Shown: one piece after another, positions 33,187 through 42,339 of the stretch | Layout of the letters: the number at the start of each line of letters is the position of its first letter | Numbering within the stretch: position 1 is the first letter of the stretch | NCBI RefSeq assembly: GCF_023973145.1 | Contig: NZ_CP099546.1 | Location: 1,798,001 to 1,862,000 of the forward strand | Reading direction: 5' to 3' | DNA length: 64,000 bases | DNA from: Natronosalvus vescus | Lineage (GTDB): Archaea > Halobacteriota > Halobacteria > Halobacteriales > Natrialbaceae | Notes under the pieces: generated by a model | Seen by the model: the letters and a program-made list of their open reading frames with translations, nothing else | What the model was told of the DNA's origin: nothing | Database searches by the model: none | Translations under genes and position numbers: made by a program

Positions 33187-34746
33187 TCAACAATCGTATT
33201 CGATAACCGTGCGGTGTCGGACGTCGTCGTACTCGCCGTCGATAGGACTCGACTGGAGGAACCGGTGGACGGTCACCGACTCGACCTCGGCGTGACCCTC
33301 GAGGTTCTCGGTAGCCGATTGACAGGCCCACTCGGCGTAGTTGACGGCGATGAGCCCGTTCGTGTCGCCGCCTCCGGAGTCCCGGACGGTCTCGAGGTAC
33401 TTGCGCTCGCGGAAGTCAGCGTACTCCTGTGAGGCGTCCGGTGGGCGATCCGCGGTGACGGTTCCGCCGTCGAACGGATCGACGGTCTGGCCGATCGCTA
33501 GCTCCGCCTCGACCGCGTACCAGCTGTAGGCTGTCGAGGGGTTCGGCGCGTACAGCCCCCAGCGCTGTTCGTTGAGGTGCTGGTGATCGATCTCGTCGGG
33601 TACCTCGTAGGACGTCACGTCGGCGGCGCTGAACAGGACGATCCAGACGAGCGCGAACAGTCCGATGATCGAGACGAACGAGCGGGCGTATTCAACGCCG
33701 AAGTCCGCTACCCGCTCGTAGTCGCTTTCGCGGAGTTGCGCGAGCACTCGGCGCTCGAGCGGAGGCTTCGAGAGCGGGCCCAACGCCTCGGCAGTCGGTC
33801 GGTAGCGGGTGACTCGATCGGGAACGCGGCGGGCGATGGTGTCCCAGAACGGCGGCGTCAGATACGCGAGTACCGAGGCGGTCAACACGAGCGGAAACAG
33901 GCCGACCGACATCGCCGTCGCCATTCCCGCGAACGCGCTGATGTACACGAGGGCGAAAAACGCACGAAGCCGCCCAACTGTCAGGAATAAAAAGACGATA
34001 GATCCGCTCAGGAGGACGACCCAGCCGTAGGTAAGTCCCTCGAGCAGGGGTGGAAACGCGGTGAGGTAGTTCCCGAGGTAGACCGTCATGACGTCGTTGG
34101 CCATCGCGATCTCGAGGGCCTCGCCCTGGTACCAGGTGTCGCCCTCGTGTTTTTCGACCGCGTTTGCGGAGAACACCGCGAGCGGTTGGGCGAGCAACGC
34201 GAGGGTAGCGAAACCGGTGACCTGCGTGCGGGCCGACCCTCGGCGGAGGGCGTCGATCGACCAGCGTTCGCCGATGGGCGTCAAGATCGCGAGCAATAAC
34301 AGCACTCGAAACAGCCGATCTCCCCCGTTGAGGACGGCTGGGTTGCGCGCTTGCAACGAGACCAGAAAGACGAGGGAGACGATCGCAACCAGCCGCGTGC
34401 GATACCCCAGGATCAGGGCGACCGCGAACAGCGCGGCGATCACGAACAGCAGCTGCTGGAACCACACCTCCCCCGACCAGGCGTGCATCGAGAGGCCGGT
34501 AAACCGGCTGTAGGTCGTCTCGTACGCTGACACGGGGTACATACCGTAATCCGAATAAAACAGCTCGATACCGCTCCAGCGGTGGGCCAGGTCGATCAGA
34601 ATCGTCACACCGAGGAGGATCCGGAGGGCGGCCAACGCACGCGTATCGACGGTTGCCCGTGCCCGAACGCGGTTCCAGACGGCGGCTCGGCTGGGGCGAG
34701 GAAGGGAATCTGGCTTCAGGTCAGTCACACGCGTTTTCACGTCCAT
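33187..34746 (-). CDS. HTTM domain membrane protein (vitamin K carboxylase-like), paralog 1
   Basis: This 519-aa polytopic protein has a horizontally-transferred-transmembrane (HTTM) domain, homologous to vitamin K-dependent gamma-carboxylase. Key stretches are DTRALAALRILLGVTILIDL, GERWSIDALRR (cytoplasmic loop), FSANAVEKHEGDTWYQGEAL (matching the K/H-W-G-A segment of the family) and WGLYAPNPSTAYSWY in the soluble C-terminal part. Some HTTM proteins export or modify substrates, but no peptide substrate gene is obvious here. I start at MDVKTRVTDLK; the promoter may be the TATA-like sequence near 34817-34822. Confidence 0.85.
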   Translation of the reverse strand: MDVKTRVTDLKPDSLPRPSRAAVWNRVRARATVDTRALAALRILLGVTILIDLAHRWSGIELFYSDYGMYPVSAYETTYSRFTGLSMHAWSGEVWFQQLLFVIAALFAVALILGYRTRLVAIVSLVFLVSLQARNPAVLNGGDRLFRVLLLLAILTPIGERWSIDALRRGSARTQVTGFATLALLAQPLAVFSANAVEKHEGDTWYQGEALEIAMANDVMTVYLGNYLTAFPPLLEGLTYGWVVLLSGSIVFLFLTVGRLRAFFALVYISAFAGMATAMSVGLFPLVLTASVLAYLTPPFWDTIARRVPDRVTRYRPTAEALGPLSKPPLERRVLAQLRESDYERVADFGVEYARSFVSIIGLFALVWIVLFSAADVTSYEVPDEIDHQHLNEQRWGLYAPNPSTAYSWYAVEAELAIGQTVDPFDGGTVTADRPPDASQEYADFRERKYLETVRDSGGGDTNGLIAVNYAEWACQSATENLEGHAEVESVTVHRFLQSSPIDGEYDDVRHRTVIEYDC

Positions 34747-35208
34747 AGGTCTTCGTTCGAGGGTGCCCCGACGGACGAATCGCTCACGTGGGCGTCGATC
34801 CGACTGTCGTGGAGGGCGATATACTACCTGTTGTGAAATTGACCGGTAAATACTTTCTCCCTCGTTGTCGTGTGGCGCGTGTCCGACGCTCGAGGCACGA
34901 CTCCCCTCGAACCGAGCGCCGGCATGTGCGTATTTCGACCTCGCCGTTTTCGAGCTGATTGGTGACCGCTCGAGTCCGGGTGGCGATCGTACCCGGTACC
35001 TCCCCACAGTCTCGCCTCTGTGAGTCCCTACGTTTCGGTGTTCACCCCCGTGGCGTATTCTCCAATACGTCGCTGGCGACCCTGTACGCTCGAGCGACCG
35101 TCGGGTTCCGGTGTGGGAGCCCGAGAGGTTGTTACGACATCCAGCGTGCCTGCCCCGTACTCCGCCGTCTCTCCGCCGTCTCTCCGCCGTCTCTCCGCCG
35201 TCTCGAGG
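34747..35208. other. Intergenic region between the two HTTM genes
   Basis: About 460 nt. It has an AT-richer stretch near 34815-34860 that may carry the promoter of the downstream HTTM gene, and an 11-bp tandem repeat near the far end. No coding frame is convincing. Confidence 0.5.
35162..35204. repeat. 11-bp tandem repeat, about four copies
   Basis: The unit CCGCCGTCTCT repeats at 35162, 35173, 35184 and 35195, the last ending early. It lies five bases beyond the stop of the second HTTM gene on the minus strand. Confidence 0.9.
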
Positions 35209-36804
35209 TCACGGGCGCATGCTGTCCGGGAAATTGATCTGCTCCGGTTCGTGATCGCCACAGCCGTACTCGTAGAACAGCCGCGAACTGCGGTCGCGGT
35301 CTTCGGGGCTGTTGATCGTCTCTATCGTGATATCCTCGCTCACGACGTACATATTGATGTGGGTGAGCGTGATGTCGTGTTCTTCCTCCCAGGTCGTACA
35401 CAGGTGTTCGGCCAGCAGTGCTGGCGTGTTGCTTCCGTCGCCAGCCCGTCGCACGCTGTTCATGTAGAACCGCTCCCGGTAGGTGCCGTACTGCTTCTGG
35501 AGTTCCTGGTGGGGCCGGTCGAACGTCAACGGCCGATCGTTGTAGACGTCGAGCAACTCACCGTTGTCGGTCTGGGCGACGAAGACGTGGTACCGATCGG
35601 TCGTTCGCGGGTTCGGGGCGAACACCGTCCAGTCGGGCTGACTGATCATGTAGGCGTTCGCCGTCGATTCGATCTGCTGTTTGTGCGGCGCGTCTTCGTC
35701 CACGAGGGCCCCCGCGGGGAGGTACGGCCCAACCGAGAACAGGAGAATCGTGACGACGATGGTCACGATCGCGAGCGTGTACAGCTGCGATCTAGCTCGG
35801 CGCTGGGCGTCCCCCCTGAGCCGCCAGTCCGGAACCGCGTGGGCGACGTGCTCGAGTCGTTTCAGGCGGGCGTGCGGCTTCTCGATATCGACGTCGAAAT
35901 ATCGGAGGACGGCTTTTCCGTCGCGCCAGATCTGGGGCTGTATGAACAATAACAGGCCGGCCATCGCGACGTACGCGAACGCGCCGATTCGAACCGTGAT
36001 GGCGAACGCGAAATGCCCACCCATGAACAGCGCGACCAGGCCCATGCGCTTTCGCCCCACGAGGACGAGCAACAGCGGCGAGATGAGCATCATGGCATAC
36101 CACAGCAACCCGCCGTAGCTGAGCAGTGTCGGCATCGCCCGTACCTGCTCGGCCAGCAGAAACGTCATGTCGTCGAGGCCGAGGACGAGTGGGGCGGCTT
36201 CGCCGGTTCCCCACACGTCCGACTGGGCCTTGTGATAGCCGTTGTAGAAGTACATGAATACCATCTGGCCCAGGATCAGCGTGGAGGCGACGCTCGCGAT
36301 TTCGGCCCGCGGATTCCGCTCCCGGTGAACGGCGTCGATCGACCACCGTTCGCCGAGCGGAAGGAAGATTGCCCAGAACACGAGCAACCGGAACAGGACG
36401 TCGGCGTAGCTCGTGACGAACGGGTTGTGGTAGTCGAGCGAGATGACGAACAGGAACGACAGAATCGTCGCCAGCCGGGTCTTGTAGCCGACGATCAGCT
36501 GAATTGCGATCAGCACCTGGATGATCATCAGCCCGGCGATGACGGTCGGATCGGTCGAGATGTGGTAGATCGAGAAGGCGTTGTCGGCAGTCACCGCCAT
36601 CGCGTGGGAACGCGGGACGACACCCTCGTCCGTATAGAAGAACCAGAAGTTTCGCGAGCGCAAGAGGACGTCCGCGATGATGAGCAACCCGACGAACACC
36701 CGAAACACCGCGAGCGACCGGGCATCGATGGTGACCGATTCCTTGAGGTTGCGGCTGACTCGAGAACGGAGGGCAGATCCCGTTAGCCGTGTGTCACGGA
36801 CCAT
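35209..36804 (-). CDS. HTTM domain membrane protein, paralog 2
   Basis: This 531-aa paralog of the neighbouring HTTM protein has a matching order of motifs. They are DARSLAVFRVFVGLLIIADVL, GERWSIDAVHR, FYNGYHKAQSDVWGTGEA (the catalytic-region-like K/H segment) and the C-terminal WTVFAPNPRTTDRYHVF. About ten hydrophobic segments precede the soluble domain. The ATG at 36804 is supported by an AAAAAATATA box at 36831-36840 on the coding strand with leaderless spacing; in-frame ATGs further up are less likely. Both genes point the same way and are 460 nt apart, so each probably has its own promoter. Substrate unknown. Confidence 0.85.
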   Translation of the reverse strand: MVRDTRLTGSALRSRVSRNLKESVTIDARSLAVFRVFVGLLIIADVLLRSRNFWFFYTDEGVVPRSHAMAVTADNAFSIYHISTDPTVIAGLMIIQVLIAIQLIVGYKTRLATILSFLFVISLDYHNPFVTSYADVLFRLLVFWAIFLPLGERWSIDAVHRERNPRAEIASVASTLILGQMVFMYFYNGYHKAQSDVWGTGEAAPLVLGLDDMTFLLAEQVRAMPTLLSYGGLLWYAMMLISPLLLVLVGRKRMGLVALFMGGHFAFAITVRIGAFAYVAMAGLLLFIQPQIWRDGKAVLRYFDVDIEKPHARLKRLEHVAHAVPDWRLRGDAQRRARSQLYTLAIVTIVVTILLFSVGPYLPAGALVDEDAPHKQQIESTANAYMISQPDWTVFAPNPRTTDRYHVFVAQTDNGELLDVYNDRPLTFDRPHQELQKQYGTYRERFYMNSVRRAGDGSNTPALLAEHLCTTWEEEHDITLTHINMYVVSEDITIETINSPEDRDRSSRLFYEYGCGDHEPEQINFPDSMRP

Positions 36805-36830
36805 CTGATCGCAGACTCCAGTCGTGCTCG

Positions 36831-36838
36831 TATATTTT
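36831..36838 (-). promoter_or_regulatory. TATA box of HTTM paralog 2
   Basis: AAAATATA on the minus strand, about 28-30 nt upstream of ATG 36804. Confidence 0.6.
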
Positions 36839-36930
36839 TTGTGGTGCCGTGTCAGATCGTCGGTCATACGCACAGGACAGTCGGTCGAGTGCAAACGGGA
36901 AGCGCGGTCACGGATCCGTCCGAGACGCCT

Positions 36931-38628
36931 TCAGTGCCCGGTGTCGTGTGGATTCAGTTCCGTCCCGTACCACTCGGCGTGGTCGGTGTAGTCGATGAAT
37001 CGCGGTGCGTCGGCATCGAACGGTCGCTCGAGGCTCTCGAACGCCTTTTTCTTGTCCCAGCTCTGGAGGCCGCCGACGGCTCCTCGATCCTCGAGGTCAT
37101 GGTAGTCGAGGTCGGGTTCGGTCAGCTCCCAGGCTTTCAGCCCCTGTTCGGTTCGAACGATGACGCTCGAGTACTCGTCGCTCGAGCCGACCGAGCCGAC
37201 GGTGAGATCGGCACAGTAGCCGGTGAAGTCGGCACACTCGTCGCAGCCCTTGAGCGCGGCGTCGTGGAAGTTCCCGATGTCTTCCTCGAGGATCATCTCG
37301 CCGTCGTGGTCGTACACCATGAGCTTCCCGTGGAGGACGTCCATCTTCCCGACGTCCGCGCGGGCGATCCCTCGCTTCTCCTCGAGTTGCTCGCCCATCA
37401 GGCTGTAGTAGTTGAAGTTCTTGGTGCACATGAGCGCGATCGTGTAGTCGACGGCGCGGACGCCTGCCTCGTGGGAGTCGTACTCCCACTCGAAGTCCTG
37501 CAGGGCGCGGATCCCCTCGATCTCACAGGGAGTGCCCACGAGAGCGAGGCTGATCTCCTCGAGCGGCTTGTCGGGGAGTTTGTGCGTCCACTCGTCGAGG
37601 TCGAGGTGACCCAGCGCCATCGTCTGGTTGTAGATCGTCCCCGCGTTGGCGATCAGATCCTCGTAACTCGTCGCGAGGTAGCTCTCGGCTTTCCAGGGTT
37701 CGTCCTCGCTCTCGGTCGCGATCAGCGCCCCGTCGATTTCGCCCGCCTCGAGCAGGTGCGCCAGCACGGTCGTGACGAGGCCGCCGTCCTGTGCGTTTTC
37801 GGTCCACTCCTCGTCGACGCGCGCGGAGAACTCCGTGATTGGGTCGCCCGCGCCTGTGACGTTGTCGTCGCCGCCGGTGATCTTCCACTGGCGTTCGTAC
37901 CGGAGCCCACCGCGGGGACAGAAGTCCCAGCAGAGCGAACAGCCGGTACACATCTTCACGAGTTCGGGCAGGTCGTCGTCGCCGATGCCGATCGAGTCGG
38001 AGGGGCAGGCGGCGACGCAGGTTCCACACTGGATACAGCGCCCTTCGTCGATGACGGCCTCGTCGAGTTCCATGAACCACGTCTTCTCGTCCGGCGTTTC
38101 GATGTCGTTCATGGACGATCGAATCGAATATGACGGCGTCTCGAGGTCGACACCCTCCGGAATCCCGACGCGAGTAGCGGGGTCGCCATTATCGACGTCC
38201 TGGCTCACGTCCCCGGCGGGCGTCGTGAACTCGAGGTCGGTCAGGTTGCCGCCCTCGTCGACGTTCGAGACGCCCGCGCCGTCGGCGCGGATTGCCCGTT
38301 CGCCGCAGGTGCAGTCGTTCGGGCTGCAGCCGTCTTCAGTCAGTTCCGTTTCGCGGTCGTTCGTCCCTGACTCGACCGCTCGAGCCCGATCGGGCGTCGC
38401 CGCCGGAACGACGTCCTCGTCTAGACCCGTCGCGCCTTCGATTGCCGGAACGCCCGGGTACGGCTCCTCGTGACCGCCGTCGGTGAGGATGTGGCGGCCG
38501 CTCTCCGTCACTGCGCCGTCGCGTTCGTCAGCACCGTCGTTCTCGACCAGTTCCGGGGCGGCGTCGGCGGGAGCGTTCGTCGGAACCGTCTCAATTGGAT
38601 CACTCGAGTCCCGCCCGTCAGTCGCCAT
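36931..38628 (-). CDS. F420 hydrogenase/dehydrogenase beta-like (FrhB/FpoF) iron-sulfur flavoprotein
   Basis: This 565-aa protein is expected to oxidise reduced F420 and pass electrons on through FAD and two [4Fe-4S] clusters. The cluster ligands are C198/C201/C204/C208 (CIQCGTCVAAC) and C227/C230/C233/C237 (CTGCSLCWDFC). The FrhB N- and C-terminal domains follow, with VGTPCEIEGIRALQ, GKMDVLHGKLMVYD and CDECADFTGYCADLTVGSVGS. Residues 1-~172 are an acidic extension with an extra C-X4-C-X-C (101-108); Met173 is an alternative start. The gene overlaps the end of the siroheme reductase gene by 11 bases. Together they resemble a two-gene version of methanogen F420-dependent sulfite reductase. Confidence 0.88.
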   Translation of the reverse strand: MATDGRDSSDPIETVPTNAPADAAPELVENDGADERDGAVTESGRHILTDGGHEEPYPGVPAIEGATGLDEDVVPAATPDRARAVESGTNDRETELTEDGCSPNDCTCGERAIRADGAGVSNVDEGGNLTDLEFTTPAGDVSQDVDNGDPATRVGIPEGVDLETPSYSIRSSMNDIETPDEKTWFMELDEAVIDEGRCIQCGTCVAACPSDSIGIGDDDLPELVKMCTGCSLCWDFCPRGGLRYERQWKITGGDDNVTGAGDPITEFSARVDEEWTENAQDGGLVTTVLAHLLEAGEIDGALIATESEDEPWKAESYLATSYEDLIANAGTIYNQTMALGHLDLDEWTHKLPDKPLEEISLALVGTPCEIEGIRALQDFEWEYDSHEAGVRAVDYTIALMCTKNFNYYSLMGEQLEEKRGIARADVGKMDVLHGKLMVYDHDGEMILEEDIGNFHDAALKGCDECADFTGYCADLTVGSVGSSDEYSSVIVRTEQGLKAWELTEPDLDYHDLEDRGAVGGLQSWDKKKAFESLERPFDADAPRFIDYTDHAEWYGTELNPHDTGH

Positions 38629-40357
38629 GGGCGACACCTCCTGCAATCGGGGCGTCGGCTCGACGAGCGATCTCCCGGAGGCGATCGTTCTCGAGGCGAC
38701 GAGTCCACTCGTAGAACCGCTCGCCTTCGGAACGGTCGTCGGAGTACGCGTCGAACAGCGACTCGAGGGCGGGGACGACGGAGTCGGCGGGGACGGCGGT
38801 CTCGATCCAGTCGAGGAACTCGTTGTCGGTACCGAGGGAGCCGCCGAGGCCGACGTCCATCCCTTCGACCAAGGCGTCTCCATCTCCCGGGCTCTGCCCG
38901 CTCGATCGTGTCGCGGAGCCATGCTCCGCGCCGTCCCCGTCGGAATCGAGTTTCACCGTCTCGCCGCGAAAACCGATGTCCGCGATCTGGGGCTGGGCGC
39001 ACGAGGCCGAGCAGCCGGACATGTGCATTCGGATCACCTCGACGTCGTCGGGGACGTCGATGCGTTCGTCGAGTTCCCGCGCCCATCGTTTCGTGCGCTG
39101 TTTGGTCTCGATGATGGCATATTTGCAGAACTCGTTGCCCGTACAGCCGACGGCTCCGCGCGAGAACGGCCCCGGATCGGGGCTGTACTCCTGGGCGAAC
39201 GGTTCGGCGAGGAGGTCGTCGACGCGCGCTTCCGGGACGTGGGTGATCAGGAGGTTCTGGTCGGTCGCGAGTCGAACGGAGGCGTCGTCGGTGCCATAGC
39301 GCTTCGCGGCTCGAGCGGCGGCGGCGAACTCGTCGCCGCCCATGCGGCCGGTGACGACGTTGAAACCGACGTATTTGAGGCCGTCCTGTTTCTGGTCGTG
39401 GACGCCGACGTGGTCGCCCTGGTAGCCCACGGTGAGCCCCTCGCCGCTCCCGGGGAGGTCGACCGTACACCGATCTCTCACGGCTTCTTCGAATTTCTCG
39501 GGGCCGAGCTGTTCGACGAGGTAGCGCATTCGGCAGAGGCCGCGATTGTACCGGTCGCCGAGTTCCTTGAACGTCTGGGCGACCGCCCGCACGAACTCGA
39601 CGGCGTCCGCCGGCGGGACGAACACGTCGAGTTCGGAGGCCATTCGCGGGCCGTCCGAGAGGCCGCCGCCGACTCGAGCGTGGAAGCCGTAGGTGACCTC
39701 GTCCGCCTGCGTCTTCCTCGCGGGCACGAGGCCAACGTCGTTGATCTGGGACTGTGCGCAGTCGTGTGCGCAGCCGGTGATCGTGAGCTTGAACTTCCGG
39801 GGGAGGTTGGCGTACTCGCGGTTTTCGGTGAAGAAGTCCGAGACGGCGTCGACGACCGGCTGGGCGTCGAAGCACTCGTGGCCGTCGAGGCCGGCGGCGG
39901 GACAGCCGAGGACGTTCCGCGCGGAGTCCCCACAGCCCTGCACCGTGGTCAGGCCGACCTCGTCGTAGCGATTCCAGAGTTCCGGCACGTCCTCGATCCG
40001 AATCCAGTGTTTCTGGATGTCCTGGCGGGTCGTGATGTCGAGGTAGGCGTCACCCCACAGCTCGTTCTGTTCCGCGCCGCCGTACGCCCCGGGGGCAACG
40101 GCGAAGTCCGTCGCCGCCTGGCCGATCACCTCAGCCTGCTCAGGCGTGAGGTAACCACCCGGAACCTTCGTCCGGATCATAAAGTATCCCTCCTGTTTTT
40201 GCGCATACATGCCGGCCCACTTGAGGCGTTCCCACTCACCGTCGCCCGCTCGAGCCTCGATTTCCTCGAACGACAGTCCCTCCTGGGCGTACTCGTGGAC
40301 GTCCTCGAGGACGTCGAGGGGGTGTTTTTCCTGTTTGTGGCGCTCGGTCGTGTTCAC
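38618..40357 (-). CDS. nirA: Siroheme [4Fe-4S] reductase, probable assimilatory nitrite (or sulfite) reductase
   Basis: This 579-aa protein reduces nitrite to ammonia (or sulfite to sulfide) by six electrons. It has two ferrodoxin-like half-repeats and the siroheme/cluster ligands C405-X5-C411 (GCTGNEFCKYA) and C449-X3-C453 (GCSASCAQ). CTGNEFC followed by ETKQR is closer to nitrite than to sulfite reductases. Residues ~476-492 are an insertion encoded by the 48-nt palindromic element, in the loop before EGMDVGLGG. I start at GTG 40357 (VNTTERHKQEKHPLDV), preceded by a GGGGGTGG Shine-Dalgarno-like run. No nitrate reductase or transporter is nearby. The overlapping downstream gene probably supplies electrons from F420. 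Confidence 0.9.
   Translation of the reverse strand: MNTTERHKQEKHPLDVLEDVHEYAQEGLSFEEIEARAGDGEWERLKWAGMYAQKQEGYFMIRTKVPGGYLTPEQAEVIGQAATDFAVAPGAYGGAEQNELWGDAYLDITTRQDIQKHWIRIEDVPELWNRYDEVGLTTVQGCGDSARNVLGCPAAGLDGHECFDAQPVVDAVSDFFTENREYANLPRKFKLTITGCAHDCAQSQINDVGLVPARKTQADEVTYGFHARVGGGLSDGPRMASELDVFVPPADAVEFVRAVAQTFKELGDRYNRGLCRMRYLVEQLGPEKFEEAVRDRCTVDLPGSGEGLTVGYQGDHVGVHDQKQDGLKYVGFNVVTGRMGGDEFAAAARAAKRYGTDDASVRLATDQNLLITHVPEARVDDLLAEPFAQEYSPDPGPFSRGAVGCTGNEFCKYAIIETKQRTKRWARELDERIDVPDDVEVIRMHMSGCSASCAQPQIADIGFRGETVKLDSDGDGAEHGSATRSSGQSPGDGDALVEGMDVGLGGSLGTDNEFLDWIETAVPADSVVPALESLFDAYSDDRSEGERFYEWTRRLENDRLREIARRADAPIAGGVAHGD
38883..38930 (-). repeat. 48-nt in-frame palindromic element, copy 2 (in siroheme reductase)
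   Basis: Reading the minus strand: hairpin 1 is CGCGGAGC, loop ATG, GCTCCGCG; then a 6-nt spacer; then the 23-nt block (38905 to 38883) with CGGGC, loop AGA, GCCCG. Compared with copy 1, the block differs at one loop base. The first stem differs at two base pairs, both compensated. The translation is AEHGSATRSSGQSPGD, in the same frame as copy 1. Confidence 0.75.

Positions 40358-41927: not shown

Positions 41928-42339
<412 letters not shown>

Follow-up and report, generated by a model that had tools for sequence, protein, structure and literature searches.

What enzyme is encoded by two overlapping genes of the haloarchaeon Natronosalvus vescus, and which oxyanion does it reduce? The genes lie in the window, a 64,000-nucleotide stretch of contig NZ_CP099546.1, and code for a siroheme-[4Fe-4S] reductase (alpha) and an FrhB-like protein (beta). 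We favor, at a probability of roughly 0.7, the reading that they form a two-subunit sulfite reductase driven by reduced coenzyme F420 (F420H2), in which the complex itself, the F420H2 donor, the sulfite substrate and the mode of docking are deduced from sequence. Such a pair, under the name aFsr-alpha/aFsr-beta, was predicted by Susanti & Mukhopadhyay (2012; PMC3448663) to act in haloarchaea as an assimilatory-type sulfite reductase that depends on F420H2, and the portion of that paper available to us also compares aFsr with Fsr of methanogens. The initial annotation of the window had proposed that the two modules of Fsr are here split and in the opposite order, with one subunit of the F420H2-dehydrogenase type, an idea that is supported and turns out to have been published already as aFsr. 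In the accessible part of a later paper aFsr is still called putative (PMC9295563), and no report of aFsr activity was found in the open-licence PMC literature, subscription papers lying outside the search. Both frames are open on the minus strand, with the following features:

38618..40357, minus strand: aFsr-alpha, siroheme-[4Fe-4S] reductase of the predicted sulfite type (class A), 579 residues, GTG start (PF01077/PF03460; substrate residues and ligands)
36931..38628, minus strand: aFsr-beta, F420H2-dehydrogenase-type subunit, 565 residues, ATG start (PF04432, PF04422, Fer4; solved relatives)
38618..38628, minus strand: overlap of the alpha stop and the beta start, exactly 11 bases (sequence)
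39788..39790, minus strand: codon of alpha Lys190, matching E. coli CysI Lys217 and tobacco nitrite reductase Asn226 (alignment)
39125..39145, minus strand: siroheme/[4Fe-4S] ligand motif C405-X5-C411 of alpha (alignment)
38999..39013, minus strand: siroheme/[4Fe-4S] ligand motif C449-X3-C453 of alpha (alignment)
38080..38280, minus strand: beta residues 117-183, a conserved segment preceding the ferredoxin domain (alignments)
37909..38058, minus strand: dicluster ferredoxin domain of beta, residues 191-240 (Pfam and alignment)
37123..37827, minus strand: FrhB N and C domains of beta, residues 268-502, including PC368, C401, C462 and C465 (Pfam and alignment)

Scanning against Pfam resolves alpha into two NIR_SIR halves (PF01077, E 4.6e-54; PF03460, E 2.9e-28) and returns no Fer4 match in it. 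Its two ligand motifs align with C434, C440, C479 and C483 of E. coli CysI, the siroheme-cluster ligands of that enzyme. Among solved structures alpha lies nearest to plant nitrite reductases and then to NirA of M. tuberculosis, and the best NCBIfam model is that of ferredoxin--nitrite reductase (PRK09566), which alpha matches with 374 of 594 bits, under the cut-off of the model. Such overall similarity does not decide the substrate, since M. tuberculosis NirA, a close relative, is a sulfite reductase, going by the title of a reference cited in PMC11237513. Alignment further places in alpha the Arg-Arg-Lys-Lys substrate set of the siroheme sulfite reductases, as R62, R147, K188 and K190, a set described as conserved across sulfite reductases in the text available of PMC10229431.

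In beta, Pfam delimits a Fer4 dicluster region (191-240), FrhB_FdhB_N (268-342) and FrhB_FdhB_C (361-502, E 3.3e-32), and the closest solved relatives, 8riu_B, 9tn7_A and the Fsr structure 7np8_A, align along the catalytic part with E-values of 2e-39 to 9e-39. The 32 aligned sequences all keep the two ferredoxin motifs, C198/201/204/208 and C227/230/233/237, unchanged, together with all 12 cysteines expected for three [4Fe-4S] clusters. The remaining four, PC368-C401-C462-C465, follow the pattern of cluster 1 of Fsr with a different exact spacing; the unusual PC...C...CX2C set of that cluster is reported in the consulted part of PMC10229431. The AlphaFold2 model of beta is poor (mean predicted local distance difference test score 49.3), and the relation to flavin adenine dinucleotide and F420 rests on the similarity to solved F420 enzymes. 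Residues 117-183 are conserved in the class A beta and absent from the class B beta (see below), making them a possible docking element on alpha. The N-terminal residues 1 to ~116 (window 38281-38628) look unstructured, with a recurring APADAAPEL stretch, and many relatives have a CX4CXC-like or CGCGxxCGCG cysteine motif in this region. Thus far the initial annotation holds up well: the 11-base overlap at 38618-38628 is exact, the C-X5-C and C-X3-C ligands of alpha are borne out by alignment with CysI, and the two [4Fe-4S] motifs and FrhB domains of beta by Pfam and alignment.

The arrangement proves to be strictly conserved. Among 292 halobacterial genomes, each at least 90% complete, the class A reductase (73-100% identity) is found in 83, a beta of the same kind is likewise found in 83, and in 83 of 83 reductase-bearing genomes the beta gene is adjacent, on the same strand and directly downstream; two further copies of this kind of beta, in genomes G104 and G241, have no adjoining reductase. 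Named loci from the genome collection, all haloarchaeal by their titles, give the same picture, the reductase adjoining beta in 79 of 80. As this arrangement recurs in all 83 genomes and in 79 of the 80 named loci, it is not due to chance; the survey that the initial annotation had called for does not find the FrhB-like gene to lie usually away from the reductase. In a phylum-wide sample of 392 genomes every match at class A identity falls in a halobacterial genome, and four genomes of another family give matches of 33-36% only. The pair is real and conserved, and most likely a two-subunit enzyme, as was predicted before. The single exception among the named loci is an orphan beta (L113, 5935-7350), whose organism, YIM A00010, has another beta locus (L108) on another contig.

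These features allow a path for the electrons to be proposed. A hydride from F420H2 would pass to a flavin in the FrhB fold of beta, from which electrons would move one by one via the [4Fe-4S] cluster in the FrhB domain to the two in the ferredoxin domain. Since alpha is without the inserted ferredoxin domain of Fsr, the ferredoxin domain of beta itself most likely docks on alpha, in place of a free ferredoxin, and the siroheme-[4Fe-4S] center of alpha would then reduce sulfite to sulfide with six electrons. The F420:NADP oxidoreductase of the same genome could regenerate F420H2 at the expense of NADPH. Both CofE, the product of an F420 gene, and npdG (264.6 bits, cut-off 149.8) are encoded in the genome, which makes it plausible that the cell has F420 and reduces it with NADPH; a single FrhB_C gene is present.

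Inspection of the other siroheme reductases of haloarchaea helps to address the substrate. Besides class A, they comprise class B, found in 24 genomes and paired with its own FrhB-like protein; C1, a single reductase in 204 of the 292 genomes; and C2, the NasD type, in 129. The last two were split by E-value against the C1 of the window's genome (<1e-250 for C1, 1e-250 to 1e-190 for C2, or two matches), and no per-genome best E-value falls between about 1e-258 and 1e-229. In a tree with 16 of the 77 named class A sequences and 9 of the 21 of C1, the four form separate groups, C1 and C2 joining with support of 100 (C1 alone 74), with the forks of A and B left open. In the loci fetched, C1 has conserved surroundings in which no FrhB or nitrate gene was recognized as recurrent, and an NCBIfam scan of the large open reading frames (ORFs) nearby finds no nitrate reductase. 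The window's genome has one C1 (L036, 8098-9873); in two genomes C1 matches come in two adjacent pieces (G060, contig C11, 65277-67115; G123, contig C1, 785204-787027), through decay or assembly error. C2, by contrast, has a NasA-type gene nearby in eight of nine loci, the ninth having NasA about 14 kb away, with no recurrent FrhB neighbor in the loci fetched; one C2-adjacent NasA was scored with NF041323 and reaches 1224 bits (cut-off 1000).

One residue separates these classes by predicted substrate. In the alignment it corresponds to Lys217 of E. coli CysI and to Asn226 of tobacco nitrite reductase. It is lysine in class A (78/78, Lys190 in the window), class B (5/5) and C1 (21/21), as against asparagine in C2 (8/8) and the tobacco enzyme. 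The class A count comprises the window and 77 alphas of the 80 named loci, L113 having no reductase and two aligning over <380 residues; the other samples are 5 of 24 for class B, 21 of 204 for C1 and eight of nine C2 loci, the frame of L152 being broken by a stop. A literature search found no paper on a change of tobacco Asn226. The initial annotation had read the CTGNEFC motif of alpha as favoring nitrite over sulfite, a preference that does not stand: the corresponding CTGTEFC is identical in 21/21 C1 and 8/8 NasD-type sequences and was dropped as a nitrite marker, the lysine is universal in class A, and NasA tracks NasD. The evidence thus favors moving the call from nitrite to sulfite.

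Class A also tends to replace C1, another lysine-type reductase. Across the survey, 40 genomes have both, 43 class A without C1, 164 C1 without class A and 45 neither (p 1e-6), an association that is weaker inside the window's family (p 0.017) and not significant outside it (p 0.12). Of the reductase-bearing genomes without C1, 43/48 have class A, spanning 19 genus codes, but conditioning on the presence of a reductase inflates this association, and the genome counts are uncorrected for phylogeny. In 14 genomes, 12 of them without NasA, no siroheme reductase other than class A was found.

Several observations weigh against the pair being an F420H2:sulfite reductase, among them the uncorrected genome counts just mentioned and the poor model of beta. 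The window's genome has no match to ATP sulfurylase PF01747, other enzymes of sulfate activation not having been exhaustively searched; of its two PAPS_reduct genes one is NcsA and the other a weak CysD/CysH-type match. The same genome has C1 as well, and the pair may therefore be redundant there. Class A is enriched in genomes with NasA overall (62/83, p 2e-9), and in G106 and G192, which have NasA, no reductase besides class A was found, making nitrite use possible there. Finally, in FsrII of anaerobic methanotrophic archaea the choice of substrate is set by the part that processes the reductant and transfers electrons, and not by the pocket, according to the accessible text of PMC9295563.

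The likeliest alternative shares the F420H2 chemistry and overlaps with the preferred reading: the pair would serve in sulfite detoxification, or in salvage from organosulfur compounds or thiosulfate, instead of sulfate assimilation. It has a substantial, though lesser, chance of being right, resting on the lack of PF01747, the presence of C1 in the same genome and a sister pair with rhodanese domains; methanogen Fsr, moreover, is described as sulfite-detoxifying in the part consulted of PMC10229431. Conversely, the 14 genomes with no siroheme reductase found besides the pair fit a biosynthetic need. As sulfate activation looks incomplete in the few searches made, the sulfite may come from sulfate, thiosulfate or organosulfur compounds.

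The sister pair is that of class B:

L037, 8172-11822 (also L038, L039, L042 and L043): class B pair, rhodanese-siroheme fusion with an FrhB-like partner

Its reductase frame of ~800 residues is paired in 24/24 genomes with a shorter beta of ~415 residues and, in the one protein scanned, is fused to two rhodanese stretches. The second rhodanese domain has the catalytic loop CNTARR in 5/5 sequences examined, and the first lacks the cysteine of this loop. Two genomes, G002 and G191, have a beta of the class B kind without a listed class B reductase, and in G002 an 803-residue reductase frame lies close to it. The rhodanese fusion itself is on record, 19 of 529 halobacterial NirA proteins having it in PMC11237513; an FrhB partner is not mentioned in the portion of that paper at hand, and none was found in print. 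The class B pair is a possible F420H2-dependent thiosulfate reductase. Elsewhere, at L040 (7801-10886), a beta paralogue of 68% identity lies without a reductase downstream of an FAD_binding_2 flavoprotein and near a gene read as SDR-like, which suggests the reuse of the F420H2 module for another acceptor. Taken together, one may tentatively envisage a haloarchaeal family of F420H2-driven sulfur-oxyanion reductases, in which the window's pair could stand in for C1, class B would be a thiosulfate-to-sulfide machine whose rhodanese part passes sulfite on to the siroheme of the same protein, and beta, as its close paralogue adjoins a flavoprotein, would be a plug-in donor; this composite picture has the odds somewhat against it.

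It is improbable that the pair instead reduces nitrite with F420H2, whether to assimilate nitrogen or to detoxify nitrite. In favor of this reading, together with the NasA enrichment and the two genomes with NasA and class A only, are the PRK09566 match under cut-off, the plant nitrite reductases as nearest solved structures, and the Fsr relative of anaerobic methanotrophic archaea that is a nitrite reductase in the available text of PMC9295563. However, the discriminating residue is lysine and not asparagine throughout, and 21/83 class A genomes, that of the window among them, are without NasA. NasA, present in 137/292 genomes, follows C2 (124/129), and its link with class A vanishes once C2 is absent: among genomes without C2, class A occurs in 3/13 with NasA (G106, G192 and G291, the last also having C1) versus 20/150 others (p 0.40). 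A search of the window's genome finds neither NasA, at E<=1e-150, nor NasD (C2) above the cut-offs, and the initial annotation's remark that no nitrate genes adjoin the pair agrees with the window ORFs inspected.

It is similarly unlikely that alpha works as a conventional sulfite reductase fed by ferredoxin and is simply co-transcribed with beta as a separate F420H2:ferredoxin oxidoreductase (or one working in reverse), for although alpha resembles ferredoxin-dependent enzymes in plan, C1 and C2, with no recurrent FrhB neighbor in the loci fetched, must have another donor, and the L040 paralogue and the L113 orphan indicate that beta can serve other partners, the pairing is strictly 1:1 in two classes (A 83/83, B 24/24) and among the neighbors that recur in the 80 named loci we noticed no ferredoxin gene.

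For the same reason a separate dicluster ferredoxin gene close to the pair in the window (42016-42339, plus strand) was dropped as a candidate donor. The idea that the pair sits in a conserved operon for sulfur or nitrogen was dropped as well, none of the recurrent neighbors in the 80 loci being strict: they comprise FtsY/SRP54-like genes (by reading the sequence), hydroxyethylthiazole kinase, an acetyltransferase, rhodanese (9/80) and NmrA (10/80). Downstream of the pair in the window stand two similar-looking membrane-protein genes in tandem (35209-36894 and 33187-35007), the former matching HTTM (PF05090).

The role of F420 in haloarchaea is described as enigmatic in the accessible part of PMC8305020, with one F420-dependent reaction reported. 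If the preferred reading of the pair as an F420H2:sulfite reductase is true, a pair conserved in 83 of 292 genomes, and in 14 of them without another siroheme reductase found, would provide F420 with a definite task in sulfur metabolism, one open to a clean test by genetics. Whether Lys or Asn stands at the discriminating position would be a simple means to re-annotate haloarchaeal 'nitrite/sulfite reductases'.

Set against known systems, the pair resembles in its donor half the Fsr of methanogens (groups I and II), whose F420H2-oxidase half is homologous to beta and shares its three-cluster plan. Fsr, however, is one fused protein with the F420H2-oxidase first, whereas here two genes have the reductase first, and the reductase half of Fsr is of a single-repeat type with an inserted ferredoxin domain (available text of PMC10229431), as opposed to the two-repeat aSir/NiR-type alpha without an insert. 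FpoF/FqoF, like beta, joins the FrhB fold to an N-terminal dicluster ferredoxin domain (the family match is under cut-off), but serves a membrane respiratory complex (PMC3448663, in the part consulted), while beta extends ~180 residues further at the N-terminus and is partnered with a reductase. Haloarchaeal NasD (C2) shares the fold and ligands of alpha at about 39-43% identity; in contrast to alpha with its Lys190, it has asparagine at the discriminating position, is linked to NasA and has no FrhB partner seen. The rhodanese-fused halobacterial NirA of PMC11237513, as far as its text at hand goes, belongs to the same reductase family as alpha and corresponds to class B. From aFsr as predicted in 2012, to the extent of the text available, nothing essential differs: the organism group, the two subunits and the proposed chemistry are the same, an aSir/NiR-type reductase gene accompanies an Fsr-N homologue in a haloarchaeon, and beta combines FrhB with two N-terminal [4Fe-4S] motifs. 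What is new beyond aFsr is the pairing in all 83 genomes, the substrate residue, the replacement of C1 and the FrhB partner of the rhodanese-fused sister reductase.

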